Source of the DNA: Bdellovibrionales bacterium
GTDB lineage: Bacteria; Bdellovibrionota; Bacteriovoracia; Bacteriovoracales; Bacteriovoracaceae
NCBI GenBank assembly: GCA_018646675.1
Contig: JABGUH010000044.1
Coordinates: 62,001 to 126,000, forward strand
Length of the DNA: 64,000 bases
Direction: 5' to 3'
Numbering within the stretch: the stretch's first letter is position 1; each line of letters opens with the position of its first letter. Shown piece after piece: positions 52,071 to 60,953 of the stretch. Under the pieces are notes generated by a model. That model saw only the letters and a list, made by a program, of their open reading frames with translations, had not been told where the DNA came from and made no database searches. The position numbers and the translations under genes are program-made.

Positions 52071-52090
52071 CTGGGATTTAGGAAGGATTG

Positions 52091-54166
52091 ATGAGCGGAT
52101 TTAGTGCAAAAATTAAAGCATTGACCAACAATTCAGATTTGGCGACAGCCATTCTCATCCTTCTGATTTTAAGTGTCATGATTGTGCCGATCCATCCGAC
52201 CGTTTTGGATCTGCTATTAGCACTGACTCTCTCTCTCTCTGTTGTGATTCTCTTAATCTCTATTTATAGTACTAGACCACTAGACTTCTCAACCTTCCCT
52301 TCCGTACTCCTCGTGACGACACTATTTCGTCTCTCACTAAACGTTGCTTCTACTCGAAATATTCTGTTACGGGGAGGAGTCGATGGTACTAGCGCTGCGG
52401 GAGAGATTATTCGTTCGTTTGGAGAGTTTGTTGTTGAGGGTAACTATGTTGTGGGGATTATCATCTTCTCAATTTTGGTAATTATCAACTTTTTGGTAAT
52501 TACCAAAGGTGCTGGACGAGTAGCTGAAGTTGCAGCACGTTTTACCTTGGATGCGATGCCTGGAAAGCAGATGGCAATTGATGCTGATCTAAATGCTGGT
52601 CTGATTGATGAGAGTGAAGCCAAGCAGCGGCGACAAGATATTGCTACCGAGGCAGATTTTTATGGGTCAATGGATGGTGCTTCCAAATTTGTTCGTGGAG
52701 ATGCTATTGCCGGTATTCTAATTACGATCATCAACGTTATTGGTGGAATTGTTGTAGGTATGGTGCAGAATGATATGACTGGCACCCAAGCAACTGAAAT
52801 TTTCACACTTTTGACGGTGGGTGATGGTCTGGTGACTCAGATTCCAGCACTAATTATCTCAACTGCAGCAGGTATCATTGCTACTCGAAATACCAGTGAG
52901 ACATCACTAGGGGATCAGGTTGGTAAACAGTTTCGGCTTCATCCCAAAGCAGTCTATATCACCTCTGGGGTTCTGTTTACTTTTGCCGTTATTCCAGGGT
53001 TGCCGAAACTGCCCTTTATCTCTGTCGGGTTGATGCTGATATTTTTTGCCCGCAGGATGGAGCAGGCAAATGTTAAAGATGAGTTGTTGGCGGCAGAGGC
53101 CAATGTGATTGATAAAAAGGTAACGACAGAGACTCTAGAGGATCTACTCAACCTAGAGATGGTTGAACTTGAAGTTGGTTATGGACTAGTCAGTCTAGTT
53201 GATTCAGAACAAAATGGTGATCTGCTAGAGAGAATTACCCATATTCGTAAACAGTTTGTGTTGGATTGGGGTGTTATTATTCCATCGGTTAGTATTAAAG
53301 ATAACCTAGAGTTAACTGCCGGTGGATACTCACTTAGGATTAATGGATCAGAGGTTGCCAAGGGTGAGTTGCTAGTAGATCACTTTATGGCGATGGACCC
53401 CGGTGGGGCGATTGAGAAAATTGATGGCATTGAGACTCAAGAGCCAGTATTTAAGCTACCCGCAATTTGGATCACCGAAGAGATGAAGGATGATGCTCAG
53501 TACAGCGGCTATACCGTGGTTGATCTCTCGACGATCATTGCTACTCACATCACTGAGATTCTAAAAAAGAGTATGCATGAGCTATTTGGACGGCAGGAGT
53601 TGGTCCGAGTGCTGGATAATTTTAAAGAGGGACACCCTAAGATTGTCTCCGACCTGATTCCCGATATTCTACCTTTAGGGACAGTGTTGAAGGTAATGCA
53701 GAATTTGTTGCGTGAAGGTGTATCGATTCGTGATCTACGGACAATTTTAGAGCGTTTGGCAGAGATGGGAGTGCACAATAAGGACATCGCACTATTAACC
53801 GAGTTTGTGCGTCAAGGATTATGCCGGACGATCACCTTAAGTATTAGAAGCGAAAAGGGTGATATTCCTATCTATACCTTAGATCGGGATATTGAGGAGG
53901 CTTTGGCATCTAATCTAATACAGACCGAGCAAGGGCAACAACTCTCCTTGGATCCCAAGGTTACTCAGAGTATTTTTGGCAGTGTTAATGAGAAAGTGGA
54001 GGAGGCAACCAATTTAGGAGAGAAGATGGTGATTCTATGTTCTCCCTCCATCCGCAGTCATTTTAAGCAATTAACGGAAAAGTTTATTCCCAATTTGATT
54101 GTGGTTAGTCACAATGAGATTAGTTCAGATGCGATCATCAGATCGCTGGGAACAGTGAGGTTATAA
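52091..54166 (+). CDS. flhA: Flagellar export protein FlhA
   Basis: 691 residues, normal length. Eight membrane helices in the first half, the FHIPEP-type conserved loop (RFTLDAMPGKQMAIDADLNA, then GLIDESEAKQRRQD, EADFYGSMDGASKFVRGDAI), and a large cytoplasmic ring-forming domain (LEVGYGLVSLVDSEQNGDLL, RTILERLAEMG). FlhA forms a nonameric ring receiving chaperone-substrate complexes. A TTG one codon earlier is in frame; the ATG is preferred for AGGAAGG spacing. The stop is one base from flhF. Confidence 0.98.
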   Translation: MSGFSAKIKALTNNSDLATAILILLILSVMIVPIHPTVLDLLLALTLSLSVVILLISIYSTRPLDFSTFPSVLLVTTLFRLSLNVASTRNILLRGGVDGTSAAGEIIRSFGEFVVEGNYVVGIIIFSILVIINFLVITKGAGRVAEVAARFTLDAMPGKQMAIDADLNAGLIDESEAKQRRQDIATEADFYGSMDGASKFVRGDAIAGILITIINVIGGIVVGMVQNDMTGTQATEIFTLLTVGDGLVTQIPALIISTAAGIIATRNTSETSLGDQVGKQFRLHPKAVYITSGVLFTFAVIPGLPKLPFISVGLMLIFFARRMEQANVKDELLAAEANVIDKKVTTETLEDLLNLEMVELEVGYGLVSLVDSEQNGDLLERITHIRKQFVLDWGVIIPSVSIKDNLELTAGGYSLRINGSEVAKGELLVDHFMAMDPGGAIEKIDGIETQEPVFKLPAIWITEEMKDDAQYSGYTVVDLSTIIATHITEILKKSMHELFGRQELVRVLDNFKEGHPKIVSDLIPDILPLGTVLKVMQNLLREGVSIRDLRTILERLAEMGVHNKDIALLTEFVRQGLCRTITLSIRSEKGDIPIYTLDRDIEEALASNLIQTEQGQQLSLDPKVTQSIFGSVNEKVEEATNLGEKMVILCSPSIRSHFKQLTEKFIPNLIVVSHNEISSDAIIRSLGTVRL

Positions 54167-54167
54167 T

Positions 54168-55622
54168 ATGTATGTGAGAACTTTTGAAGCCGACACCCTT
54201 GATGATGCTTTGAAGAGTATTAAGCAAGAGTTGGGCCCAGACGCCATTATTCTCAAAACAGTCACCAATAAGGGACTCAAGGGGGCGTTTAAAAAGAGCA
54301 AAATTGAGATCACTGCGGCGATATCAGAGAAAAATTATAAAGATAAGATGGAGGTGGACCAGGTATTAACTGATGATCAACGTCAGCAGTTCTACCAAGG
54401 GCCATCATCTTATGTCTCTAACATGATTGATCAACATGCGGGTAATCGAGGTAGTGGGCCGGAAAGCCCCAGTGGTTATGGCAAGTTGGGTTTAAATCGC
54501 ACTGTAACTGACGTTGGAAACCAGGGGGCAGTAGAGGTTCGCTCTAGTGCAACGCCTTCCTTGGAGGATTTTTTGCAAGGAAGTGATGTTCCTGTTGCGC
54601 ATACGAATAGGGAGAGCAATCCCCAGAATGTGCAGGATGAGAAGGTAGATATTCTGGATCGTGAGCTAGGTTTTCAAACTGCAATGCCGATGAACTCTAC
54701 CTCCATGCTTGATTCAGAGGAGAGAGTGATAACAGAAAGAGTAGATGATCAACTGTTGGATGGGGAGAGAAGAAGAATTGATCAGTTGGAGCAGAAGCTA
54801 CTTTGTCTGCAGCAAGGACTATCTGAAGTAGAGCAGCGAGCTCCTATGGGGATCTATCAGTTGCAAACTACTTTGCGCAGCCTTGATATCACTGAGCGAT
54901 ATATCAAAATTTTAACTGATAAAATGTTATTTAATCTAAGCGAAGATGAAGTTGCAGATGCGGAAGTGACTTTTGAGTACGCCTTAACGGATATGGCTGA
55001 GCAGATTAAAGTAGCAATGCCACTTTTCTCATCGGTTAACTTAGAGCAGGATAGTTGTGTCACCATGCTGCTTTCAGGAGTCGGAGCCGGTCAGAGCAGT
55101 ACCTTGATGAAGTTGGGGGCACTTAAGCGAGAGGAGTCGGTAGTAATCAAATACTCTACGCAGCCTAGTGAGACACAGAAGAATTTTGCCGCCAAACTAT
55201 TCGATATTAAGGTGATAAATGTTACTGGCCAGGCAGAGGTGATGTTGGAGTGCCGTAAAGCAGTGGATAGTGGTAAGTCAGTATTTATCGACTATGAGAA
55301 TGGTAACTCGGAATACAATGATGTTAAGAAGTTTGTTAATGGGTTGAAGCGGTCATTTGATCAAGTAGAAGTTTTGATCTGCCTGTCGGCAATACACTCA
55401 GAATTATATAATCGTCAGGTGGTTGCAAACCATCGCTCGTTAGCAGATGGAATGGTGGTCTCTCACCTTGATCTCTGTTTGAATTTTGGATCACTATTTA
55501 ACTTGGCTTACGAGAATAGTTCCTTGCCATTTAAGTTTTATGGGACTGGAACAGTGGTGCCTGATGATTTAGAAGCAGCATCTAATGAGAGGATTTTAGC
55601 GGGAATTTTTAATATTAACTAA
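54168..55622 (+). CDS. flhF: FlhF-like protein with degenerate GTPase domain
   Basis: 484 residues. The N-terminus MYVRTFEADTLDDALKSIKQ, LGPDAIILKT and a variable linker match FlhF, the SRP-type GTPase that places polar flagella. The end (LDLCLNFGSLFNLAYENSSL, FKFYGTGTVVPDDLEAA) also aligns with the family. Yet the nucleotide motifs are gone: the P-loop position reads SGVGAGQSST (303-312) with Gln309 where Lys is needed; DTAGR is replaced by DYENG (375-379); TKLDE by SHLDL. There is no frameshift or stop, the gene is tightly packed between flhA and flhG, and codon use looks normal, so this is a conserved pseudo-GTPase rather than a decaying gene. It may still act as a location marker without a GTP cycle. 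Confidence 0.88.
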   Translation: MYVRTFEADTLDDALKSIKQELGPDAIILKTVTNKGLKGAFKKSKIEITAAISEKNYKDKMEVDQVLTDDQRQQFYQGPSSYVSNMIDQHAGNRGSGPESPSGYGKLGLNRTVTDVGNQGAVEVRSSATPSLEDFLQGSDVPVAHTNRESNPQNVQDEKVDILDRELGFQTAMPMNSTSMLDSEERVITERVDDQLLDGERRRIDQLEQKLLCLQQGLSEVEQRAPMGIYQLQTTLRSLDITERYIKILTDKMLFNLSEDEVADAEVTFEYALTDMAEQIKVAMPLFSSVNLEQDSCVTMLLSGVGAGQSSTLMKLGALKREESVVIKYSTQPSETQKNFAAKLFDIKVINVTGQAEVMLECRKAVDSGKSVFIDYENGNSEYNDVKKFVNGLKRSFDQVEVLICLSAIHSELYNRQVVANHRSLADGMVVSHLDLCLNFGSLFNLAYENSSLPFKFYGTGTVVPDDLEAASNERILAGIFNIN

Positions 55623-55667
55623 CCTTAAGCACTCTTTTAATTCCAGGATGGAAAATAAGGAGACATG

Positions 55668-56576
55668 ATGTCTAAACCGTGTGCGAGTGAGTGGCTTTTA
55701 TCTCAAAATAAATATACAACTGATCTAAGTGGTGACCCACAACTTTCAGGGGCGACGACATCAGGGGTAACCATCTCTGTAAGTAGTGGCAAGGGAGGAG
55801 TTGGTAAAACCTCCGTCGCAGTAAAACTTGCCAAAATGATGGTCGCAAATGGTCGTCGGGTCTTGTTGATCGACTGTGACTATAATCTATCGAATACTCT
55901 ATTAAAGCTAAATCTACCTGTCAGTAATAACTTTTTCTCATTAATCTCAGCTGAAAAAGAGTTTGATGACTGTCTCTATAAAGAGGGCAACTTTCATCTG
56001 CTATCTGGCTGTAATGGTAATCTTGAACTATTTGATAATGGATTGGAGTATGACTATCTGGTGATAGATATTATCAACCAACATCGAGATAAATATGATT
56101 TCGTTATCTTGGACTGTCCAGCCGGCATCAGTCGCGCGACACTCAATTTAAATGCCTATAGTGATTATCGCTTTATTGTGGTCACTCCAGATAAATCTTC
56201 TGTCACTGATTCCTACTCATTAATGAAGATCCTCTCCATTCGTCATAACATAAAGCAGAATCATCTTCTTTTAAATAAGGTGTCATCGGTTGGCCAGTTT
56301 AAAAGAATTGTTAAGACCATGAGTGAGACTGTAGGGAACTATCTAAATTGCCAGCTTAGTCTTTTGGGAGGTATCCAGCTGGCGACGGAGGCGGTGGACA
56401 AATTTGATCAGGTACTTTTTCAAGAGGGAAAATCTGGCCTGCACAAAAATTTTCTTAATGTTTTAAAAAGGTTTGACGAAGAGCACTCAAACCGCATGTC
56501 GCGTCACTTCCCTCTGCGGGGTAAGCGAATGTTCGATATGGATGGCATGGAATATGAAGTTCCGCAAATCAGCTAA
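55668..56576 (+). CDS. flhG: FlhG (FleN/YlxH) MinD-like ATPase
   Basis: 302 residues from ATG 55668, preferred to 55665 for spacing from GGAG. It has an intact Walker A SSGKGGVGKTS (deviant Lys and GKT, Lys47), VLLIDCDYNLSNTL, and DFVILDCPAGISRATLNL as switch II, so it should bind and hydrolyse ATP like MinD. FlhG controls flagellar number. Unlike most FlhG, its N-terminal extension has no DQAxxLR motif, the element that activates FlhF GTPase; this agrees with the degenerate FlhF next door. The C-terminus ends in basic and aromatic residues and could be a membrane-targeting helix. Confidence 0.92.
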   Translation: MSKPCASEWLLSQNKYTTDLSGDPQLSGATTSGVTISVSSGKGGVGKTSVAVKLAKMMVANGRRVLLIDCDYNLSNTLLKLNLPVSNNFFSLISAEKEFDDCLYKEGNFHLLSGCNGNLELFDNGLEYDYLVIDIINQHRDKYDFVILDCPAGISRATLNLNAYSDYRFIVVTPDKSSVTDSYSLMKILSIRHNIKQNHLLLNKVSSVGQFKRIVKTMSETVGNYLNCQLSLLGGIQLATEAVDKFDQVLFQEGKSGLHKNFLNVLKRFDEEHSNRMSRHFPLRGKRMFDMDGMEYEVPQIS

Positions 56577-56585
56577 GGAGTGCTA

Positions 56586-57371
56586 ATGTCTTCTCTCGCC
56601 AAAAGATTAAAAAACTTACGCGATTACCGTTCAACCGTCGGCCCAGAACTAAAAGATGAAATCATCATAGAGTACGCACCTCTGATCAAGTTTATTGCTC
56701 AGAAAATAGCCTCTCGTCTACCTGCCAATATTGAGTTGGATGATCTGATCTCCTGTGGTGTGATTGGATTGATGGATGCAATTGAAAAATTTGATCCAAA
56801 TAGAGATAATAAATTTAAAACATATGCAGAGTTCCGTATTCGTGGGGCGATCTTGGATGAGCTGCGGGCACAAGATTGGGTACCACGCTCAGTTCGAGAG
56901 AAGGCCAAGCAGATCGAGCGGGTCTATGCTCGTTTAGAGTCCACTCTTGGACGTCCTGCTACAGATGAAGAGATGTGCAAGGAGTTGAAAGTCTCTCAGG
57001 ATGAGTTTTATGACATGCTGAATAAGGCTAAATCCATCTCACTACTGAATATTGATGATTCCACCACTTTTAATCGAGGTGATAAGAAGTTGATGGCCGG
57101 TATTATGGAGAATAGTCGTCGCTCAAATCCATCTTATGCCACTATCTATAAGAACTCTCGCGATAATATCAAAAATGGTATTAAATCACTGCCGGAGAAG
57201 CAGCGTTTAGTACTATCCCTCTATTATTATGAGGATCTAAATCTCAAGGAAATCGGTAAGGTATTAGACGTGACTGAGTCCCGTGTTTCTCAACTACATA
57301 CGCAGGCAATTATCAAATTACGCTCTCGCTTAAAAGATACCTTTGATTCAGCTGAGGATCTAGCAGGGTAG
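56586..57371 (+). CDS. fliA: Flagellar sigma factor FliA (sigma-28)
   Basis: 261 residues from ATG 56586 (AGGAG at 5 bases; a GTG two codons earlier is in frame). Region 2 is IIEYAPLIKFIAQKIASRLP, DLISCGVIGLMDAIEKFDP and TYAEFRIRGAILDELRAQDW; PRSVREKAKQIE is region 3; LPEKQRLVLSLYYYEDLNLK with the helix-turn-helix DVTESRVSQLHTQAIIKL is region 4. All fit FliA. It directs late flagellar and chemotaxis genes. It closes the operon with flhF and flhG, an order common outside enterics. Confidence 0.96.
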   Translation: MSSLAKRLKNLRDYRSTVGPELKDEIIIEYAPLIKFIAQKIASRLPANIELDDLISCGVIGLMDAIEKFDPNRDNKFKTYAEFRIRGAILDELRAQDWVPRSVREKAKQIERVYARLESTLGRPATDEEMCKELKVSQDEFYDMLNKAKSISLLNIDDSTTFNRGDKKLMAGIMENSRRSNPSYATIYKNSRDNIKNGIKSLPEKQRLVLSLYYYEDLNLKEIGKVLDVTESRVSQLHTQAIIKLRSRLKDTFDSAEDLAG

Positions 57372-58550: not shown

Positions 58551-60953
58551 ATGACCCGAGTTAATTTGGCCGGTGGCCCACAGATCTACTATATCTCAGT
58601 CTTAACTCTTTTGATGACTCTATTCTCCTACGGTGCCTACTATTTTTGGGATCATGGAGTGATCAACGTCAGCAATATTGTGGCGGTCTTTGATAGTGAA
58701 GCAACTTTGGAAAAGCTAAATGGGGGGAGTGAGCTAAAACAGATTCATACCTTGGTGAATAGTGATCGTGTTCGTGAGAGTGTGCCTTTGGTGACCTCCT
58801 TATTGCAAACCAGTAGTAAACTTAATGTTGCAGTGATCGGAAATTCTCAGGCGTTCACCCAGTTTAAGACAGATTTAGCTGCAACGAGAAAGAGGGTCGA
58901 TCGCTTAATCTCCTATCCGAATACAGCTTCAATCTTTCGTGTTTTAGGTAGTAAGGTCAAAGGGTTTGAGAATTTTGTCGTTACCAATAAGTGGCGTACC
59001 TTGACTAGAATTTCTCGGCGCCTAAATGTGCGGATCGCTTCACTTTTACGAAGTGCGGATCAGATGATTCACTACCAGACCTTTAAACGTTCAGTGGCGA
59101 CGATTAAAAAAGATGTTAAGTTGATGCGTGCAGTGACGCTCTCTTCAATCCTATCTGATCAGGAGAAAAGCGTCATCACGTTAAAAGTAGATACTTTGAA
59201 AACTGAGTTAGCCATGCTGGATAACTATCTAACTGCTTTATCCAGTTTTAATCGTGAATTCCAAAAGGTTAATAGCAGTTATCTGCATTGGTTAAAATAT
59301 ATTACACCTTTAGTTAAAGCTAGTGTTGAAAAGCTGGAAGGACTCTCTCATCAATTATTGATCTCGTTGGGAGGATTTATCCTACTGCTATTTACCTCAA
59401 TTTTGGGAGGAGTTGCTGTATATCATCGAACCAAGTCAAATTTGAAAGCCAGTTATGAGGGATTAATTGTTCAGGCCCTATCGGATGGGATTATCGCACC
59501 GGAGAATAGCTTTGATCATGGTTTAACTCCATCATTTGATCTGGAAATTAATCGTTTACGAGACTATGTACACAAGCGGATGAATTTTGGTGCTGTTTTT
59601 CAAGACGCTCTCCCTTTTTCATCTATTATGTTAGATTCCAATCTAAAGGTCGTCTGGGCCAACCCACTATTCTATGAAAGCTGGGACTTAAAGGATTACC
59701 AGTTTAGTGAACAGACATTAAGCTGGGACTATCTACAGCGCTTTACCAACTTAGGTGAGAATGATCCACTGGTGGAGGCCCTTAACCAAGGGGTGGCCGG
59801 GATCTATCAAATTCAGGTAAAGACCTCACTTCATCAGGAGAGTTATCCCTACGAGATGTATGTCTCACCTGTTACCAGCCAGGGACAGGATCGAATTATG
59901 ATTTTCTTTTATCCTCTAAGTTCGGTGGAGCAAAGCTTGGCCAACCAGACGAAGTCGTTGGTTGGGCCGGTGGCCAGAACATTAGATGCCCTAACTAATA
60001 AACATTTTGATCTGGAGTTTATGGAGGGGATAAAAAAGGATTTTGAGATCGCTGGTATTAGTGAGATCTTTAATAAGTTTAAGGTTCACCAAGAGATGAT
60101 CGCTCAGCAGGAGGAGGCTCAACAGGAGGAGCACCGCCGGTTACTTGAACACCTACAAGAGGAGTTGGATCGTCTGGCCCAAGCGGAAAAAAATCTGATT
60201 GGTCAGTTTGATGGTGCTCAGAGAATGGGTGAGGGGTTTAAATCGCTAGGCAGTGAGGTGGTCTCCTTGATTGAATTACGTCAGCAAATTGCCAATCTCT
60301 ACTCCCAATCGGTTACGCGGATGGAGCAGATCATGAATAACAATAGTGATCTACTACTTAAGGCGGCAGAGCTTAAGTGTTGTCTGAATGATGGACAGCG
60401 GTCAGTTGAGAGTGTCATTGCAGTTAAGGATAAATTTAAAGGGATGCGCTTACGAATTGATGACTTTAAGTATCGAATTAATCAAACTTTGGATCAGATT
60501 TTACTGCTGCAGAAGAGTGACCAGTTGGATAGCTTTAAGATGGAGCAGGCTTTTGAGCGTGTCAAAATTGAGATTAAGGAGTTTGAAAAAGTACTACAGG
60601 GCTTTAACCAAGTTGTGACATCCTTGGATGTCTCTCTTTCCAAAATGGAGATGGTCGTTGGCGAGGGTGATAAAATAGTTATTGATCAGACCAAAGAACA
60701 GACTGAGCGCTTAAGTGGACAGGTGACACAAGATATGGGCAGCTATCGGGAGTTGAAGAAGGGGATGCCACAACAAGATGAACTACTGATTGAAATTATC
60801 AAGCAGGTTTATGGTGATTATCAACAGGGAGTAAAGCAGCTTAAGGAGCTATCTCTTACCGTTGAAGGGCGTCGAGAGATCGATCTGGATTTGACCATGC
60901 CACCACATCTAAGTGCCCCTAGTGATCCAGAGGTTGTTAACAGTCTTCAGTGA
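58551..60953 (+). CDS. Transmembrane sensor-like protein with PAS-type domain and coiled coil
   Basis: 800 residues. Membrane helix 1 (about 13-33), a periplasmic helical domain of about 230 residues, membrane helix 2 (about 268-290, LISLGGFILLLFTSILGGVA), a short linker, a PAS-like domain (about 345-450: LPFSSIMLDSNLKVVWANPL and YPYEMYVSPVTSQGQDRIMI), then about 300 residues of coiled coil with long heptad runs. The plan is that of a chemoreceptor or sensor kinase. But no MCP hairpin signature (E-x-x-x-QT...GFAVVA) and no histidine-kinase boxes are visible, so the output is unknown. A partner for the flagellar or signalling machinery is an inference from position. The 3' end overlaps coaE by 17 bases. 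Confidence 0.7.
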   Translation: MTRVNLAGGPQIYYISVLTLLMTLFSYGAYYFWDHGVINVSNIVAVFDSEATLEKLNGGSELKQIHTLVNSDRVRESVPLVTSLLQTSSKLNVAVIGNSQAFTQFKTDLAATRKRVDRLISYPNTASIFRVLGSKVKGFENFVVTNKWRTLTRISRRLNVRIASLLRSADQMIHYQTFKRSVATIKKDVKLMRAVTLSSILSDQEKSVITLKVDTLKTELAMLDNYLTALSSFNREFQKVNSSYLHWLKYITPLVKASVEKLEGLSHQLLISLGGFILLLFTSILGGVAVYHRTKSNLKASYEGLIVQALSDGIIAPENSFDHGLTPSFDLEINRLRDYVHKRMNFGAVFQDALPFSSIMLDSNLKVVWANPLFYESWDLKDYQFSEQTLSWDYLQRFTNLGENDPLVEALNQGVAGIYQIQVKTSLHQESYPYEMYVSPVTSQGQDRIMIFFYPLSSVEQSLANQTKSLVGPVARTLDALTNKHFDLEFMEGIKKDFEIAGISEIFNKFKVHQEMIAQQEEAQQEEHRRLLEHLQEELDRLAQAEKNLIGQFDGAQRMGEGFKSLGSEVVSLIELRQQIANLYSQSVTRMEQIMNNNSDLLLKAAELKCCLNDGQRSVESVIAVKDKFKGMRLRIDDFKYRINQTLDQILLLQKSDQLDSFKMEQAFERVKIEIKEFEKVLQGFNQVVTSLDVSLSKMEMVVGEGDKIVIDQTKEQTERLSGQVTQDMGSYRELKKGMPQQDELLIEIIKQVYGDYQQGVKQLKELSLTVEGRREIDLDLTMPPHLSAPSDPEVVNSLQ

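Follow-up and report, generated by a model that had tools for sequence, protein, structure and literature searches.

FlhF of the class Bacteriovoracia very probably does not hydrolyse GTP. Judging from its sequence, hydrolysis is very probably impossible: neither the P-loop lysine nor the G2 loop with its catalytic aspartate nor the Thr-Ala-Gly-Arg of G3 is left. We consider it probable that the FlhF of this class, which includes known predators, is an obligate pseudo-GTPase and ties FliG to the cell pole as a fixed tether, the ATPase of FlhG being the only nucleotide switch. The analysis started from a stretch of 64,000 nucleotides from a bacterium of the Bacteriovoracaceae, here called the window, and was extended to 129 genomes of the class from 48 genera. 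All of them carry one family code; NCBI places the Bacteriovoracaceae within the class Bacteriovoracia.

An FlhF without GTPase motifs

The relevant features of the window are the following.

52088..54166, + strand: flhA, the upstream gene and source of the tree
54168..55622, + strand: flhF, encoding the pseudo-GTPase FlhF of 484 aa (open reading frame, profile matches, model)
54168..54344, + strand: N-terminal domain, residues 1-59, counterpart of the FliG-interaction domain of Shewanella FlhF (profile against 9en1, E 9e-4)
54441..54737, + strand: linker, residues 92-190, variable and probably disordered (pLDDT <50, conservation index 0.25)
55074..55097, + strand: pseudo-P-loop S-G-V-G-A-G-Q-S, residues 303-310 (profile alignment, class alignment)
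55092-55094, + strand: invariant Q309, which replaces the P-loop lysine
55290..55304, + strand: former G3, DTAGR changed to DYENG, residues 375-379
55461..55475, + strand: former G4, TKLDE changed to SHLDL, residues 432-436
55539..55550, + strand: retained G5-like loop YGTG, residues 458-461, with invariant G461 (class alignment)

The gene lies where an flhF is expected, between flhA upstream and flhG downstream. As originally predicted, its product is full length and has the N-terminus of the family: the match to TIGR03499 (FlhF, NCBIfam) starts at residue 1, albeit with 59.9 bits, far short of the cut-off of 174, while the Pfam SRP54 GTPase domain matches over the C-terminal part only. An AlphaFold2 model has a mean pLDDT of 78 with a low-confidence linker at residues 96-189 (pLDDT <50 at 96-133 and 138-189). 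It matches Shewanella putrefaciens FlhF 8r9r (E 8e-12), 2px0 and many Ffh/FtsY NG domains, so that the characteristic arrangement of an N-terminal B/FliG-interaction domain and an NG domain is present. Residues 1-59 show the highest conservation in FlhF, with an index of 0.73 in the class alignment. A PDB search with the single FlhF sequence found no match; the family profile gave the matches.

The losses named in the original prediction, namely the P-loop lysine, DTAGR and TKLDE, are real and extend far beyond the window to the whole class. The family profile aligns to Bacillus subtilis FlhF (2px0) with Q309 beneath the P-loop lysine and in unshifted register, and a pattern search for GxxxxGK[ST], DxAG, DTxG and [NTS]KxD has no match anywhere in the window FlhF. 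It locates GQSS, including Q309, at residues 308-311. Shifted motifs, which would have spoken against the prediction, are thus not present. The G2 loop is also gone, a loss beyond those first noticed, and the protein does not carry the G1-G4 set of a GTPase. The aspartates of G3 and G4 (D375 and D435) are retained, as is the YGTG loop, which we take to be G5 from what is known of SRP GTPases. Architecture and synteny make the protein an orthologue of FlhF, but its motifs are not those of an FlhF GTPase.

Spread across the class

Could an intact FlhF be encoded elsewhere? No FlhF scores above the canonical cut-off in the window genome or in any of the 129 class genomes, and the second intact copy that would have overturned the prediction was not found. 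In a sample of 114 genomes from the phylum, 46 have an FlhF above this cut-off, and not one of these belongs to the window's family. PF00448 detects two full SRP-type GTPases in the window genome, encoded by open frames of 398 and 500 aa and presumably FtsY and Ffh, together with a weak match over 40 positions.

With a profile of the window's form, pseudo-FlhF is found in 119 of the 129 class genomes and in 44 of the 48 genera. Its distribution follows flhA closely: 117 genomes have flhA and 116 of these have pseudo-FlhF, the sole exception being one with a partial flhA match (G064). Nine of the 12 genomes without flhA are also without pseudo-FlhF. Three genomes (G008, G026 and G036) have FliG and flagellin matches and neither flhA nor flhF, probably owing to assembly gaps.

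A misassembly, a misalignment or an overlooked intact second FlhF is barely conceivable as the source of this picture. The window genome is a draft of 47 contigs that is 94% complete, which leaves some room for such an error; yet the same losses recur in 46 class members, near-complete genomes among them, and both the in-register alignment to 2px0 and the empty count above the cut-off speak against it.

Fixation and selection

The changes are remarkably uniform. At the position of the P-loop lysine, all 46 class members read have Gln and all 53 FlhF from the phylum's other families have Lys. The G2 loop and the TxGR of G3 are gone in each of the 46, and the G4 lysine in all members read but one (L027, TKLD). 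The G3 and G4 aspartates are retained in the members read, with the exceptions of one Asn at G3 and one residue missing at a contig end. Chance loss is ruled out because the same residues are gone in every class member read. The 35 aligned members all share Q309, D375, E412, D435 and G461 without variation; together with S303 and G308, these belong to the most strongly conserved residues of the G domain within the class. The former pocket is thus among the best conserved parts of this domain.

Between close relatives, pairwise dN/dS lies at 0.06-0.11 in FlhF and at 0.02-0.08 in FlhG. The altered FlhF pocket is under strong purifying selection, not in decay. Class FlhF therefore has both marks of a pseudoenzyme, the absence of catalytic motifs and the retention of the protein by selection, and the proposal of an evolved pseudo-GTPase is borne out by the fixed residues and low dN/dS. 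It is most improbable that FlhF is decaying under relaxed selection once its GTP cycle was no longer needed. The motifs do erode stepwise in the phylum, and Bdellovibrio, with a P-loop beside DYTGL and TSLDE, would fit such a course. Against this stand the dN/dS values, the full-length intact reading frames in 44 genera and a lysine position that is fixed as Gln rather than drifting.

The original prediction also spoke of flagellar placement without a GTP cycle. For hydrolysis, the sequence argues strongly that this is so; the pocket is highly conserved, however, and nucleotide binding may persist. We regard it as a less probable alternative that FlhF still works as a ligand-operated switch, in which a remodelled pocket of Q309, D375, E412, D435 and G461 binds GTP, GDP or another guanine ligand without hydrolysis and changes shape. 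The retained G3 and G4 aspartates and the G5-like GTG loop, as well as the invariance of the five residues, are in its favour; the G4 aspartate serves base recognition in GTPases. But the P-loop lysine, the entire G2 loop and the G4 lysine are gone, from which most nucleotide affinity in P-loop GTPases usually derives, and the retained aspartates may be structural. The former pocket is nevertheless more constrained than a bare scaffold would need, which counts against the reading of FlhF as a fixed tether.

FlhG and its N-terminal helix

Three features describe the partner protein.

55665..56576, + strand: flhG, MinD-type ATPase of 303 aa (Pfam AAA_31, E=4.5e-21)
55683..55706, + strand: N-terminal helix of FlhG, residues 7-14, ASEWLLSQ, with class-invariant W10-L11
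55785..55814, + strand: intact deviant Walker A SGKGGVGKTS of FlhG, residues 41-50

FlhG has the motifs of a MinD-type ATPase and is encoded directly after flhF; that it keeps its ATPase motif without DQAxxLR agrees with the original description. The second half of this description needs refinement, as the DQAxxLR motif is gone but the helix is not simply missing. A helix at residues 7-14 is predicted with low confidence and joined to the ATPase by a flexible stretch. A conserved [AST]xxWL helix stands where other FlhGs have DQAxxLR, and its W10 and L11 are invariant over 26 class sequences. Class FlhG keeps the architecture of the DQAxxLR helix with its residues exchanged. In FlhGs that have the motif, its glutamine serves FlhF as a co-catalyst (PMC12826062). 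At the opposite end of the protein, most class members share a short conserved peptide of the approximate form E[QH][DE]V[QRH], which follows a variable segment (56541-56576 in the window).

FlhF-FlhG pairs and the order of loss

The 16 scored FlhGs with DQAxxLR all adjoin an FlhF that retains G3 (DTxG) and the G4 lysine intact; of the 68 FlhGs without it, only two do so. This association is inflated by relatedness: the FlhA tree holds three independent pairs, with which significance is unreachable. The two exceptions, in families f17 and f23, combine an intact FlhF with an FlhG lacking DQAxxLR. On the FlhA tree, f17 is the sister family to the class (SH-aLRT 82, one genome); a second f17 genome, consulted to settle which loss came first, contains no complete flhF. 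Because f17 and f23 show this combination, the helix motif seems to have been lost before the GTPase of FlhF. For the same reason, and because Pseudomonas FleN is also without the motif, one cannot conclude from a missing DQAxxLR alone that the GTP cycle is gone. The matched loss in both partners that had been proposed therefore holds insofar as both are altered in the class, but it was not one event.

Bdellovibrio bacteriovorus HD100 (G180, L087) is an intermediate with a half degenerate FlhF. This protein keeps its P-loop (GPAGSGKTS) and G2 (DTFKVG), and both G3 (DYTGL) and G4 (TSLDE) are changed; its FlhG is without DQAxxLR.

Other combinations occur in the phylum. Directly after flhF, two loci of family f8 (L070 and L073, - strand) encode a protein of ~190 aa that starts with DQAxxLR and lacks an ATPase motif. 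It looks like an FlhG reduced to its enhancer helix, the converse of the class case. At L078 and L081, DQAxxLR is present and Walker A is broken.

Relation to known systems

Class FlhF shares with the SRP-type GTPase FlhF of B. subtilis (2px0) and S. putrefaciens (8r9r, 9en1) the operon position between flhA and flhG, the N-terminal FliG-type domain, the linker and the NG fold. It differs in that the P-loop lysine, G2, DTAGR and TKxD are exchanged for conserved residues, and it scores far below the family cut-off. Similarly, class FlhG has the intact deviant Walker A, the MinD-like fold, the short N-terminal helix and the flexible linker of FlhG/YlxH ATPases, with an invariant Trp-Leu instead of DQAxxLR. 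FleN of Pseudomonas, an FlhG homologue from a polar flagellate, is a close parallel in having no such motif (PMC12713375) and differs in that the FlhF it pairs with is a functional GTPase. Eukaryotic pseudoGTPases such as the p190RhoGAP domains (PMC5593906) likewise have a GTPase fold without catalytic motifs; unlike class FlhF, these are not SRP-type.

No paper on a bacterial SRP-type pseudoGTPase was found in the literature searched. The accessible parts of the Bdellovibrio and FlhF papers and of a 2025 review on the FlhF/FlhG switch do not describe the pseudo-FlhF form; most subscription papers lay outside the search. The purpose of the FlhF GTP cycle is debated, and mutants differ between species (summarised in PMC12713375). 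Bacteriovoracia thus offer a natural test of what this cycle is needed for. The class with its hydrolysis residues lost, Bdellovibrio as an intermediate and the other families with intact proteins form a natural series that separates tethering from GTP-dependent functions.

A proposed fixed tether and single switch

How might such a system work? In the reading that we favour, the pseudo-NG domain would bind its polar partner in a single fixed conformation and the N-terminal domain would hold FliG at the pole. FliF would then join, and the basal body would begin at that spot. Release and counting would fall to FlhG through its intact ATPase. Its helix, with Trp-Leu in place of the co-catalytic glutamine, probably continues to dock on the pseudo-NG domain, at a site that we can only infer. 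There is precedent for this in Shewanella, where HubP is bound by the NG domain irrespective of nucleotide and FliG by the N-terminus (PMC11236974); in Pseudomonas aeruginosa and Vibrio alginolyticus, localisation does not need GTP hydrolysis (as summarised in PMC12713375). A search for a HubP/FimV landmark found no match in the window genome, which speaks against this reading, though as a weak test given that the model is short and stays below cut-off in all control genomes.

More tentatively, FlhF and FlhG may be a re-engineered switch, in which the Trp-Leu helix would dock in or beside the pseudo-active site of FlhF. The ATP cycle of FlhG alone would then control a nucleotide-independent polar scaffold, general enough to outlast flagella in one genus.

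Pseudo-FlhF in a genus without flagellar markers

That genus is g33, represented by G032, G105 and G107, which are 94-99% complete. FlhA, FliG_C, flagellin and FliMN_C are all without a match in these three genomes, and flhG is not beside flhF, nor does any match elsewhere come near the strength of a true FlhG. The pseudo-FlhF is retained in a shortened form of 346-375 aa, with a dN/dS of 0.05 between two genomes, and is encoded at these loci.

L137:9544-10668, + strand: flhF of g33
L138:7441-8478, + strand: flhF of g33
L139:7612-8736, - strand: flhF of g33

Its persistence points to an FlhF function without need for a flagellum. FliG is not the sole FlhF partner in g33, because the genus keeps FlhF without flagellar genes, a point against the fixed tether. 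From here it is a short step to the idea that the main role of class FlhF is that of a general polar scaffold, its link to flagellar placement being secondary, which we think improbable. The retention of FlhF under selection in g33, in the absence of flagellar matches, speaks for it; elsewhere in the class, by contrast, flhF sits between flhA and flhG and accompanies flhA almost without exception, most of the remaining genomes have neither gene, and the shorter g33 form may be specialised.

The neighbours of flhF in g33 include a sigma-70-type gene and one related to the 800-aa open reading frame at 58551 of the window. The sigma factor gene at L137:10744-11544, which carries sigma-70 regions 2, 3 and 4, resembles the downstream neighbour in the window.

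56580..57371, + strand: fliA-type sigma factor gene (similarity to L137:10744-11544)

A gene of ~170 aa precedes flhF in g33. By eye it seemed FliM-like, for which Pfam, NCBIfam, BLASTP and profile comparison give no support. The window genome (G000), for its part, encodes three extra small FliG_C-type proteins besides its full FliG, at C23:9133-9447, C20:42700-43011 and C25:32433-32738.
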